A stretch of 64,000 nt of DNA, taken from contig NZ_VUYU01000026.1 in the NCBI RefSeq assembly GCF_011682065.1, positions 1 to 64,000 on the forward strand. The letters are read 5' to 3'. Source of the stretch: Massilia rubra (GTDB taxonomy: Bacteria > Pseudomonadota > Gammaproteobacteria > Burkholderiales > Burkholderiaceae_D). Under the pieces are notes generated by a model. That model made no database searches. It was given only the letters and a program-made list of their open reading frames with translations, and was not told the DNA's origin. Position numbers and translations under genes: made by a program. Positions 34,475 to 51,351 of the stretch are shown piece after piece. Each line of letters opens with the position of its first letter. Position 1 is the first letter of the stretch.

Positions 34475-34935
34475 CACGGCAAGCCGCGACTGTGGCCGCA
34501 TGCGGAGCTGGAGCGCTATTGCGAGCTGATCGCGGCGCTTAAACTGCGCATCACCAACAAGGCCGGGCGCCACCTTTCCACCGGGCGGTCCATCGAGCTG
34601 ATGGAGGACTATGGCGTGGAGACGGCGCAGGGCTTGGTCAAAGCGCCGAAGGGCCCGCTGCGGCGTCCGACCGTCAATCGCCATCTTTCGCTCTTACGCC
34701 TCGATCAGCCCCGTCTGCTGCGCGAACCGCCGGCCGTGCGCTTCCAGGCCGGACCAAGCAAGGACTGCTGGCAATCCGACATGTCGCCGTCGGACCTCAA
34801 GCACATCGACAAGCCCGATCGGATCGATCCGTCGAAGGCTGTGCCGACCTTGATGCTGTTGAGCGTGGTGGACGCCCGTAGCGGCGTCTGCTACCAAGCG
34901 TACCAGTGCGTGAACGGCGAGGACGCCGAGTCAAC
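34475..34935 (+). pseudogene. Integrase-core transposase fragment
   Basis: An open stretch reads HGKPRLWPHAELERYCELI, GRHLSTGRSIELMEDYGVETA, RRPTVNRHLSLLRLDQPRLLREPPAVRF and a catalytic-core start CWQSDMSPSDLKHIDKPD followed by SVVDARSGVCYQAYQC. This is the middle of a DDE (rve) transposase that binds DNA with its front half. Front and back are missing; the right end stops at the cfa gene's 3' end. Downstream, the same frame runs on only as antisense of cfa. Confidence 0.75.
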
Positions 34936-36175
34936 GCCACGTCGCCTGCCCGTACATGTAGCGCCGCGACCATGGCAGCGCGGCCGGATCGCGTCCCGCC
35001 CTGCCGCACACGATCTGGTACAAACTGATCCAGTCATGGGTGAACGCATGCGTGCATCCGGCCAGGTACACCTGCCAGATGCGAAAGCGGCGCGCGTCCG
35101 TCAAGCCTTTGATGCGCTCGGCATTGGCCTCGAAATTCTCGGTCCACATGGCGCATGTGCGCGCGTAATGGCGCCGCAGGTTTTCCACGTCGCGCACCTC
35201 GAGCCCGCCTTCCTGCATGGCCTTGACCACCGTGCCCAGGTGCGCCAGCTCGCCGTGCGGAAACACGTACCGGCTGATGAAGTCGCCGCCTCCGTGCGGC
35301 ACGCCATGGCTGTCCGGATTGGTGGTGGTCAGCCCGTGGTTCATCGCCACCCCGTCGGGCGTGAGCAGCGTTGCCATGCGGCGAAAGTAGGCGGGCAGCT
35401 GGCGCACGCCCACATGCTCGAACATGCCCACGCTGGTGATGCGGTCGAACTGGCCGCCGACATCGCGATAATCCTGCAGGCGGATCTCGACCTGCCCTGT
35501 CAAGCCGGCCCGCTCGACCCGCTCGCGGGCCAGCCGCGCCTGGTTATCGGACAGGGTGACGCCGACGCAGCGCGCCCCGTGCCGCTGGGCCGCGCGGATG
35601 GCCAGCGCGCCCCAGCCGCAACCGATGTCGAGCAGGCGGTGTCCGGGCCGCACGCCGATCTTGGTGAGGATATGGTCGATCTTCCTGAGCTGCGCCTCGG
35701 CCAGCGTTTCGTTGCCGTTCTCAAAATAGGCGCACGAATACACCATGTCCGGATCGAGCCAGGCGCCGTAGAATTCGTTGGACACGTCGTAGTGATAGCG
35801 CACCGCTTGCGCATCGTGCTTGCGCGTGTGGCCGCCGCCGAGCGCGTCGCCGACCGCGCCGAGCAGGCGCCCCAGCCCGAGTGCGGGCAGCTTGTTGGCC
35901 AGTGCATGACTAGCCAGCGCATTGACCACGGCAATCATGTCGTTGGCGCGCCCGCTGACGTCGATCGCGCCTTCCACGTACGCGCGGCCGAGCTTGTACA
36001 GCGATGGCGCCAGCAGGTAGCGCAGCGAACTGGCGCGCGGCACGCGCACGGTTACGCGCGGCGGATCGGGCGAAAAATCGAAGCGCTGGCCGTTCCACAG
36101 CTCCACCCGCAAAGGAAGCGATGGCTGGCTGCGCAGGCCTTCGCTCCAGGCCTTCAGTTTGATCTGGTTGAACAC
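34931..36175 (-). CDS. cfa: Cyclopropane-fatty-acyl-phospholipid synthase family methyltransferase
   Basis: About 414 residues. It uses SAM to add a methylene bridge to unsaturated acyl chains of membrane lipids. Motifs are YHYDVSNEFYGAWLDPDMVYSCAYF, LLDIGCGWGALAIRAA (SAM site), VGVTLSDNQ, ITSVGMFEHVG and a C-terminal TENFEANAERIKGL. I chose GTG at 36175 because GGAGG lies five bases before it; an upstream GTG at 36181 sits directly on the ribosome site. It lies 44 bases behind the hemerythrin-PdxH gene on the same strand, probably one operon. Its 3' end abuts transposase debris. Confidence 0.92.
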   Translation of the reverse strand: MFNQIKLKAWSEGLRSQPSLPLRVELWNGQRFDFSPDPPRVTVRVPRASSLRYLLAPSLYKLGRAYVEGAIDVSGRANDMIAVVNALASHALANKLPALGLGRLLGAVGDALGGGHTRKHDAQAVRYHYDVSNEFYGAWLDPDMVYSCAYFENGNETLAEAQLRKIDHILTKIGVRPGHRLLDIGCGWGALAIRAAQRHGARCVGVTLSDNQARLARERVERAGLTGQVEIRLQDYRDVGGQFDRITSVGMFEHVGVRQLPAYFRRMATLLTPDGVAMNHGLTTTNPDSHGVPHGGGDFISRYVFPHGELAHLGTVVKAMQEGGLEVRDVENLRRHYARTCAMWTENFEANAERIKGLTDARRFRIWQVYLAGCTHAFTHDWISLYQIVCGRAGRDPAALPWSRRYMYGQATWR

Positions 36176-36225
36176 GCACACCTCCGGACGATTGTTGCCG
36201 GCCGCTGTGCGCGCACACCGGCCGG

Positions 36226-37440
36226 TTAGGGTTGCAACCGTTCGCGCGCCCAGCTGCCGTCGCTTTGCAGCGTGTACACGATGCGGTCGTGAAAACGCGA
36301 GCGGCGTCCCTGCCAGAACTCGATGCGTTCAGGTACCAGGCGGAAGCCGCCCCAGTTGTCGGGACGTGGCGGCTCCTCGCCGTATTGCTTGGCTACAGCG
36401 TCGTAGTGTTGTTCCAGCGCGCCACGATTGGCAATCGGCTCGCTTTGCGCGGACGCAATCGCGGCCAGCCGGCTTTTCAGCGGACGGCTGTGGAAATACT
36501 TGTCGCTTTCTTCCGCAGAAGTGCGCTCTACCCTTCCTTCGATCCGGATCTGGCGTTCGAGTTCCGTCCAAAAGAACAGTAATGCCGCATGCGGGTTGGC
36601 GGCCAGCTGGCGCCCCTTCTGGCTGTTGTAGTTGGTGTACCAGGTAAAGCCGCGCGGATCGAACTGCTTGATCAGCACGATGCGCGAGCTCGGCCGGCCC
36701 TGTTCGTCCACGGTCGCCACGCTCATCGCGTTCGGCTCGTTGACCTGGGCCTTGAGCGCTTCCTCGAACCAGGTGGTAAATTGCACGAACGGATCATCCG
36801 CCACGTCGCTTTCGTTCAGGCTGGCCTGGCCGTAATCCTTGCGCAGGCTGGCCACGGCGTCGCCGGTCGATGCCGGCTGCGCCGCCGGCGTGGCGCTCGG
36901 GGCGCCCGGGGCGATACCGCGCCGTTGCTGCATGGCCTGGCCCAGGGTCGCCATCTGCGCGGCGCTGAACAGGCGCTTGGCCATCGGCGCGATATGGCCT
37001 TCCTCGCGCTCCATGTGGGCGCGGTACATGCTGGCGAAGCGCTGCACGTCGTGCTCGCGCAGCAGCGCGGCGCTGCCGTCGGCGATGGCGGACAGTTGCT
37101 CGTGCAGTTCTTGCCACATGCCGTCCATCTGGCGGTGCTCGTCGAGGATGCCGGGCACGAGCTGGGCCAGCAGCTCGGCGTCCGCGCCGCTGGCCGTGCT
37201 GCGCAGCATCGGCACCAGGTTCTGTTCTTCGTCTTCGTGATGGAGCGGCGCGGCCTGGTCGAAATACTTCATCACCGCGCGCGCGGCATGGCGCGCTTCG
37301 TCGTCGGCGCCGTGGCTGGCCAGGTGCGGCAACAATTTTTCCAGGGTGGCCAGCTGTTTGCGGATGCGGTCGTGACAGTGTTTCAGCACCGCGATCGGCT
37401 GGTCGAAACCGGGGGCGCTGTCGGGCAGGGCGTAGCTCAT
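36226..37440 (-). CDS. pdxH: Hemerythrin HHE domain fused to pyridoxamine 5'-phosphate oxidase (PdxH)
   Basis: 404 residues in one open frame. The N-terminal part (about 1-165) has the hemerythrin-like pattern of helices with metal ligands: [37 protein letters not shown] and [17 protein letters not shown]. An Ala/Pro-rich linker (about 172-193) leads to a full-length PdxH (about 194-404): [69 protein letters not shown], and the end [24 protein letters not shown] cut short here. PdxH makes pyridoxal 5'-phosphate with FMN and O2. A di-iron O2- or redox-sensing domain on it is unusual. ATG at 37440 gives a clean hemerythrin start; earlier codons read through a repeat. Confidence 0.88.
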
Positions 37441-37522: not shown

Positions 37523-37614
37523 CCGTCGTTCCCGCGCAGGCGGGAACCCAAGTTCGTTCCGCAGCCAGTGGCGGTTCGACAAAACTTGGGTTCCCGCCTG
37601 CGCGGGAACGACGG
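37523..37614. repeat. dRS3-like palindromic repeat, copy A
   Basis: Two perfect 32-base inverted arms (37523-37554 and 37583-37614) enclose 28 bases. Each arm contains GTTCCC-N8-GGGAAC (GTTCCCGCGCAGGCGGGAAC). This is a variant of the ATTCCC-N8-GGGAAT core seen at 51271 and known as dRS3 in Neisseria. It lies between the divergent pdxH and tcdA genes. Confidence 0.8.
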
Positions 37615-37690
37615 AGTGACGTCACCGCCATCGGGAACATATTGCACATTTTAGAGCAGTCTGTCCGGCCGCGTCCGTTAAAATGGCGGC

Positions 37691-38542
37691 ATGAATACCA
37701 TCACCACCCCCTCACTTCCCCCCGATACCAGCGAGGTCGACTTCGAGCGCCGCTTCGGCGGCATCGGCCGCCTGTACGGCGCCGCCGCGCTGGCGCGTTT
37801 CCGCTCCGCCCATGTGTGCGTGATCGGCGTCGGCGGGGTCGGCTCCTGGATCGTCGAGGCGCTGGCCCGTTCCGCCATCGGCCAGCTCACCCTGATCGAC
37901 CTCGACAACGTGGCCGAATCGAACATCAACCGCCAGATCCAGGCCCTCACCGATACCGTCGGCCAGGCCAAGATCGGCGCGCTGGCCGAGCGCATCGCCC
38001 AGATCAATCCCTTCTGCAAGGTCAAGCTGATCGAAGAGTTCATCGATCCCGACAACCTCGACCAGATGATCGGCGCCCACCAGTACGACTACGTGGTCGA
38101 CGCCATCGACAACGTCAAGGCCAAGGCCGCGCTGATCGCGTATTGCCGCGACCACCAGTTGCCGATGGTGATCATCGGCAGCGCCGGCGGCAAGACCGAC
38201 CCCACCCGCATCGAACTGCGCGACCTGTCCAAAACCGAACAGGAGCCCTTGCTGAAACTGGTGCGCAAGCGCTTGCGCAACGATTACGGCTTTCCGCGCA
38301 GCCTGAAAACCAAGTTCAACGTCGATGCCGTGTTTTCGATGGAACCGCTGAGGATGCCCGAAGGCGAGAGTTGCGAGGTCGATGGCGACGGCATCACCGG
38401 CCTCAATTGCGCCGGCTTCGGCTCGAGCATGGTCGTCACCGCTACCTTCGGCATGGTGGCCGCCGGCCACGTGCTGCGCCGTCTTGCCGACGGTGCAATT
38501 CACGCGCCTTCTGTGCAGGCGCCCGAGGCCTTGCTATCATAG
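37691..38542 (+). CDS. tcdA: tRNA threonylcarbamoyladenosine dehydratase TcdA
   Basis: 283 residues, E1/ThiF-like fold. It closes t6A37 of tRNA to the cyclic form ct6A using ATP. Landmarks are RRFGGIGRLYGAAALARF, the nucleotide-binding VIGVGGVGSWIVEALARS, LIDLDNVAESNINRQIQA, DYVVDAIDNVKAK and a C-terminal GFGSSMVVTATFGM. It works downstream of the tsaC product found at 18852, although the genes are far apart. Confidence 0.93.
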   Translation: MNTITTPSLPPDTSEVDFERRFGGIGRLYGAAALARFRSAHVCVIGVGGVGSWIVEALARSAIGQLTLIDLDNVAESNINRQIQALTDTVGQAKIGALAERIAQINPFCKVKLIEEFIDPDNLDQMIGAHQYDYVVDAIDNVKAKAALIAYCRDHQLPMVIIGSAGGKTDPTRIELRDLSKTEQEPLLKLVRKRLRNDYGFPRSLKTKFNVDAVFSMEPLRMPEGESCEVDGDGITGLNCAGFGSSMVVTATFGMVAAGHVLRRLADGAIHAPSVQAPEALLS

Positions 38543-51270: not shown

Positions 51271-51351
51271 CGTCATTCCCGCGCAGGCGGGAATCCAAGG
51301 TCCTGCCGTTTAGCAGACATGCCTTGGATTCCCGCCTGCGCGGGAATGACG
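51271..51351. repeat. dRS3-like palindromic repeat, copy B
   Basis: Perfect 30-base inverted arms at 51271-51300 and 51322-51351. Each holds ATTCCCGCGCAGGCGGGAAT, the ATTCCC-N8-GGGAAT form. Same family as the repeat at 37523-37614, with A/T in place of G/C at the arm core. Confidence 0.85.

Follow-up and report, generated by a model that had tools for sequence, protein, structure and literature searches.

An in-frame fusion of a hemerythrin-type HHE domain to pyridoxamine-phosphate oxidase (PdxH) in Massilia rubra

The window analysed here is a stretch of 64,000 nucleotides from Massilia rubra (contig NZ_VUYU01000026.1, positions 1 to 64,000), and its gene of interest encodes a hemerythrin-type (HHE) di-iron domain fused to pyridoxamine-phosphate oxidase (PdxH, also called PNPOx). 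A first-pass annotation had described, without naming a strand, a single frame joining an HHE domain to a complete PdxH, and its coordinates proved exact (Table 1). The gene is read on the minus strand from an ATG at 37440 to a stop at 36226-36228, and the plus strand across the same interval is interrupted by a stop. Both domains exceed their cut-offs: Hemerythrin (PF01814) matches residues 15-154 at 60.5 bits against a Pfam cut-off of 25.3, the Pfam domains PNPOx_N and PNP_phzG_C match residues 225-350 and 363-404, and the NCBIfam equivalog for PdxH, TIGR00558, scores 272.6 bits against a cut-off of 180. The open frame extends further upstream, to a GTG at 37647 (473 amino acids); the ATG at 37440 is the likely start codon, since 45 of 46 fused relatives align from residue 1 (the other, L006, from residue 5) and the upstream extension holds an inverted repeat.

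Table 1. Features of the fusion gene and its immediate neighbours in the window (SD, Shine-Dalgarno)
Feature	Positions	Strand	Remarks
HHE-PdxH fusion gene	36226..37440	minus	404 aa and stop; one intact frame, profile matches, relatives
HHE di-iron domain, residues 1-176	36913..37440	minus	conserved H21 C22 H23, H67 H68 xx E71 E72, H102, H142 xxx E146
Ala/Pro-rich linker, residues 177-195	36856..36912	minus	poorly modelled at 178-199 and under weak constraint; no start codon preceded by an SD-like site
Complete PdxH (PNPOx) domain, residues 196-404	36229..36855	minus	has the lid residues R200/Y203 and the catalytic residues
cfa-like cyclopropane fatty acid synthase gene	34931..36181	minus	next downstream, same strand; 44 bases past the fusion stop
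tcdA-like ThiF-family gene	37691..38542	plus	divergent neighbour of the fusion

The PdxH half aligns over 210 residues with the Escherichia coli enzyme (1g76, 1jnw), which has no N-terminal HHE domain, and its model matches 1jnw with a template modelling (TM) score of 0.94 by target. Thirteen lid, flavin mononucleotide (FMN) and substrate positions, most of them of established role, were compared (R14, Y17, R67, K72, K89, Q111, Y129, R133, S137, W191, R197, H199 and R201 in E. coli numbering); all are present in the window protein and are kept in 54 of 55 fused PdxHs, the remaining one (L095) deviating at three. The lid residues R14 and Y17, whose roles are described for E. coli PNPOx (PMC10969823; this and the other papers cited here are drawn on for individual passages), correspond to R200 and Y203, directly after the linker. 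The PdxH half is predicted to be a pyridoxine and pyridoxamine 5'-phosphate (PNP/PMP) oxidase.

When the 7.57-Mb, 118-contig genome was queried with the whole fusion protein, this gene alone matched. The first-pass annotation had suggested checking for a second pdxH, and none exceeds the cut-off: the only other TIGR00558 match in the genome reaches 23.3 bits against the cut-off of 180, while hemerythrin-family matches over cut-off number six, the fusion included. PdxJ was found and PdxS gave no match in the genome, the control search for PdxS being positive in 10 of 14 known genomes. The PdxJ route leads through PdxH to pyridoxal 5'-phosphate (PLP). With a sole PdxH over cut-off, PdxJ present and PdxS absent, PLP synthesis should end at the fusion, whose PdxH half would carry out the final, O2-dependent step, one that makes hydrogen peroxide (H2O2).

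The HHE half belongs to the HHE superfamily by its PF01814 match, its modelled four-helix bundle (four helices within residues 15-157, plus a fifth at 160-173) and its structural match to 2p0n (TM 0.93 by target). The latter is NMB1532 of Neisseria meningitidis, a protein of uncharacterised function that is 27% identical and shares the CH, HHEDEE, H and H..EE residues; it is, however, a standalone chain of 172 residues with Ala where the window protein has H21. The fusion thereby offers a lead on the function of uncharacterised NMB1532-type proteins. Among 96 HHE domains of the family (55 fused and 41 adjacent to pdxH), H67, H68, E71, H102 and H142 never vary; H21, C22, H23 and E146 are constant too in the rows that have a letter there, 95 for each. 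Besides gaps in short rows, the sole substitution at the iron-ligand positions is Lys for E72 in L102. Y59 and Y139 are likewise invariant in the alignment of the 96 domains. The ligand order, His, HxxxE, His, HxxxE, is filled by H23, H68-E72 (or H67-E71), H102 and H142-E146.

We read this putative iron site as YtfE-like rather than as that of an O2-carrying hemerythrin. The order of ligands is that of YtfE/RIC proteins, in which iron is bound by H84, H204, H129, H160, E133 and E208 (PMC9268430), and the step of 45 residues from H23 to H68 equals that from H84 to H129. The O2-binding hemerythrin site comprises five His, one Glu and one Asp (PMC9388753). The fusion nevertheless falls outside the RIC/YtfE family proper: TIGR03652 scores 25.7 bits against a cut-off of 204.7, over model positions 75-172 only, and there is no room for the ScdA N-terminal domain, helix A beginning at residue 15. 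O2 carriers have an HxxxH spacing in helix C, the second His lying four residues on. At the corresponding position, four residues past H102 (position 106), His occurs in only 3 of the 96 domains and the window protein has Asp, so that with this spacing missing and the ligand pattern different the domain is probably not an O2-carrying hemerythrin. The premise that hemerythrins bind or sense O2, on which the first reading had been built, is weakened in its O2-binding part by this pattern.

Relatives of the fusion were scanned in named genomes, a scan that takes in the best 80 of 582 loci and is not a census. The same stop-free fusion is found in 46 of these 80 (L002-L047), titled mostly Massilia, Duganella, Rugamonas or Janthinobacterium, along with Telluria, Pseudoduganella, 'Herbaspirillum sp. 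SJZ107' and 'Burkholderiaceae bacterium', the last two (one locus each) grouping among Massilia in the tree. A sequencing slip or assembly artefact in a single genome is thereby excluded, and the prospect that a corrected sequence would yield separate proteins did not materialise. Within the family of the window, Oxalobacteraceae judging by its named members, a census of 92 genomes at an expectation (E) value of 1e-15, a threshold that weaker HHE domains escape, gave 21 genomes with the fusion (8 genera), 31 with adjacent HHE and pdxH genes (10 in the same frame with one stop between them and 21 in another frame), 32 with pdxH alone, 3 with both genes apart, 1 with HHE only and 4 unmatched. 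One genome (G018) was assigned to the fused class by hand, its two rows lying within one 461-aa frame; a row of another (G074) begins at residue 97 and was checked, with no HHE match within 4 kb. Among the 55 fused loci, L123 and L004 have identical PdxHs on contigs of the same length and are probably one genome counted twice. At one locus of the window's own genus, L103 (G213), HHE and PdxH are not in the same frame; this sets it apart from the rest of the core clade and probably reflects an assembly frameshift or a recent mutation. In the sampled genomes of one small-genome genus of the family (g7), no PdxH-like match at E 1e-10 stands among the matches listed, and this genus supplies 13 of the 17 family genomes without such a match.

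Outside the family, the matches listed include both genes for 44 genomes of the order, and in none of these do the two lie side by side. In 29 of the 44 the genes are on separate contigs; the 15 distances that can be given come from genomes with both on one contig, where the nearest pair is 107,670 bases apart. Among the matches listed for samples of the order (300 genomes) and the class (274 genomes), rows spanning both domains come only from the window's family, although a fusion with an unlike HHE would not have ranked in these searches. As the apart, adjacent and fused stages all exist in one family, the use of a di-iron-type domain to an oxidase is open to a direct genetic test.

The junctions point to an HHE gene directly upstream of pdxH that was joined to it in frame within one branch of the family. 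In the unfused pairs, the HHE frame stops just before the pdxH start or overlaps it. By a simple counting rule, 24 of 40 adjacent loci (L103 left out) and none of 55 fused loci have an SD-like site ahead of a start codon around the former beginning of pdxH; near this position, the adjacent loci have ATG in 36 cases, only GTG or TTG in 1 and none in 3, against 12, 31 and 12 in the fused loci. The 12 fused loci that retain an ATG are 11 titled Janthinobacterium and L122. These counts indicate that fusion removed the stop and the ribosome site, and mostly the ATG too. In the PdxH tree, 52 rows (51 fused and the frame-broken L103) lie on one side of a branch with an SH-aLRT support of 94 (unstarred), and the fused rows L095, L099, L101 and L122 are placed elsewhere on long branches. 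The HHE tree groups L099, L101 and L122 (98) next to adjacent genes, and its starred branches require at least two changes. Both trees are quick searches, and approximately unbiased (AU) tests do not reject a single fused clade (p 0.675 for PdxH and 0.723 for HHE).

A further mark of the partnership lies next to the putative iron ligands. Residue 21 is His in all 95 PdxH-partnered HHE domains with a letter there, whereas in 22 standalone HHEs (the 20 of L142-L161 lie outside the family, L162 and L163 within it) it is Ala in 20, Val in 1, Ser in 1 and His in none, so residues 21-23 read HCH in the partnered proteins and mostly ACH otherwise. None of the stretches fetched around these 22 genes contains a pdxH. 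These 22 and two further HHEs without a pdxH nearby, L164 and L165, all have C22 and H23.

The linker between the domains is rich in Ala and Pro, as initially described (29% Ala and 11% Pro across linkers), and measures 12-49 residues from the last RR of the HHE domain to the lid. In six close pairs, the ratio of nonsynonymous to synonymous substitution (dN/dS) spans 0.07-0.31 in HHE, 0.05-0.11 in PdxH and 0.18-1.54 in the short linker; three pairs come from the window's group and are not independent, and the linker value rests on 15-27 codons. These ratios indicate that both domains are under purifying selection and that the leash between them is much less constrained. An AlphaFold2 model built on 63 aligned sequences contains two confident domains (mean predicted local confidence, pLDDT, 88.9) and a poor linker at 178-199; with this linker and a predicted TM score (pTM) of 0.54, the relative placement of the domains is unpredicted. 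The variable linker, the absence of docking in the model and the unfused pairs favour proximity or a fixed dose over rigid mechanical coupling.

On these grounds of variable linkers, no docking and unfused forerunners, we tentatively place first, at somewhat less than an even chance, the reading that the HHE domain, tethered beside a peroxide-making oxidase, would use a di-iron site to scavenge H2O2, O2 or nitric oxide (NO); a passive fusion, a sensor and an O2 store follow in that order. PNPOx reduces O2 to H2O2 (PMC10969823). As PdxH oxidises PNP or PMP with O2, the H2O2 released, and possibly O2 or NO, would be removed by the HHE domain through its proximity to the FMN site, and such scavenging would spare PdxH and the aldehyde that it forms. 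This reading is supported by the census, with its 21 fused and 31 adjacent genomes, and by the His21 of the partnered HHEs. As analogies only, weak activity as a catalase and as an NO peroxidase has been described for a mycobacterial hemerythrin-like protein (HLP), Mka HLP, that has four His, two Glu and a Tyr (PMC8913304), and HerA and HerB help to guard Campylobacter enzymes against oxygen damage (PMC4257069).

Several points weigh against scavenging. The Tyr ligand of the mycobacterial proteins is said to occur nowhere else (PMC8913304), so their chemistry may not transfer, and the known roles of YtfE-type sites concern iron-sulphur repair and NO (PMC9268430). PdxH can manage without HHE, as 32 of the 92 family genomes have pdxH and no HHE match at the census threshold. 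Conversely, HHE may matter without PdxH catalysis, because the fused copy of one genome (L095 of G019) keeps its HHE ligands while its PdxH half is altered at Y203, Y315 and R319 (the lid Tyr and two substrate residues), and this genome also has a separate pdxH (L141), perhaps a natural split of two functions. L164 (79 residues matched) and L165 have His21, and the stretches fetched around them contain no pdxH; the residue follows descent in addition to partnership and may reflect the former rather than function. A more specific proposal, which we consider rather unlikely as it stands, is that the domain was retooled by the invariant His beside Cys22/His23 and either removes the H2O2 of PdxH or slows the enzyme according to the level of oxidant or NO. 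If true, this would amount to di-iron control of PLP synthesis, with a B6 oxidase that has a built-in redox module.

The joining may instead be passive, the HHE domain doing a job of its own (in iron-sulphur repair, in dealing with NO or as an iron buffer) while the link does no more than fix its dose or share expression, an explanation that we regard as unlikely but worth keeping in view. It would fit the YtfE-like ligand pattern, the frequency of unfused pairs, the altered copy of G019 and the standalone relatives that adjoin NnrS and SirB genes, found at 2 of 10 recognised loci (20 were fetched outside the family). It accounts less readily for the presence of HHE and pdxH together, fused or adjacent, in 52 of the 92 genomes and for the His that standalone HHEs lack. 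The two loci beside NnrS and SirB (L147 and L155) lie in runs with these genes, a hint of an NO-related duty. Two other standalone loci lie by a thioredoxin-like gene, and the remaining neighbours scanned comprise one rhodanese, one Kdo transferase and two without a match; taken together, these neighbours are mixed and too weak to fix a function.

More doubtful is a sensor of redox state, NO, O2 or iron that gates PdxH through its tied N-terminal lid and so tunes the supply of PLP. Hemerythrin sensor domains are known (PMC9388753), and Arg23-Arg24 of the allosteric PLP site of E. coli PNPOx are Asn209-Glu210 in the window protein. However, the linker varies widely in length and is weakly constrained, no docking of the domains is predicted, and lone and outgroup PdxHs are largely the same in their lid residues and in lacking the Arg pair. 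Loss of the allosteric pair was also considered in itself as the reason for the fusion and was rejected, because the lone and most outgroup PdxHs lack the pair too. The pdxH of Neisseria gonorrhoeae is tabulated among anaerobically changed genes (PMC3032703).

That the domain stores or carries O2 for PdxH in hypoxia is improbable: PdxH requires O2 and the domain exceeds the Pfam hemerythrin cut-off, yet the ligand pattern is unlike that of O2 carriers and one O2 per subunit would be a trivial store for an enzyme that turns over. An artefact, or two proteins made by internal initiation, is barely credible, for despite the GTG at V196, the ATG that 12 of 55 fused loci have close to the lid and the split frames of L103, the open fusion recurs among the best 80 loci and no fused locus has an SD-like site before such a codon.

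A description of an HHE-PdxH fusion was not found in the open-access literature, although domain databases may list the architecture, and the string 'pyridox' does not appear in the main text of a survey of O2-binding hemerythrin architectures (PMC4919030). The fusions covered there, with MCP, GGDEF and HD-GYP domains, similarly join a hemerythrin-type domain to another domain (PMC4919030, PMC9388753), but their commonest partners act in signalling, whereas the partner here is a biosynthetic oxidase and the iron-site pattern differs. The mycobacterial HLPs (Rv2633c and Mka HLP) resemble the window domain in their HHE-type four-helix bundle with four His and two Glu. In these proteins, however, the chemistry with H2O2 has been shown, while for the fusion it is only proposed; their Tyr ligand is regarded as a mycobacterial peculiarity, and they are not joined to an oxidase.

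The gene order tcdA (divergent), HHE-pdxH, cfa recurs among the relatives. The first-pass annotation had cfa, taken as a membrane-stress gene, following the fusion in a probable operon, and the synteny itself stands, with cfa on the same strand in the window and a neighbour at 47 of 55 fused loci. It says little about the joining, because cfa is also a neighbour at 23 of 41 adjacent and 5 of 14 lone-pdxH loci. For tcdA, the corresponding counts are 51 of 55, 34 of 41 and 7 of 14. A promoter and terminator scan gave nothing exceeding chance. Between tcdA and the fusion gene, at 37529-37608, lies an inverted repeat formed by TTCCCGCGCAGGCGGGAACCCAAG and its reverse complement, and a second copy of this pair is found at 51276-51346 with one mismatch per arm. 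We take the repeat to resemble the dispersed repeats of Neisseria.
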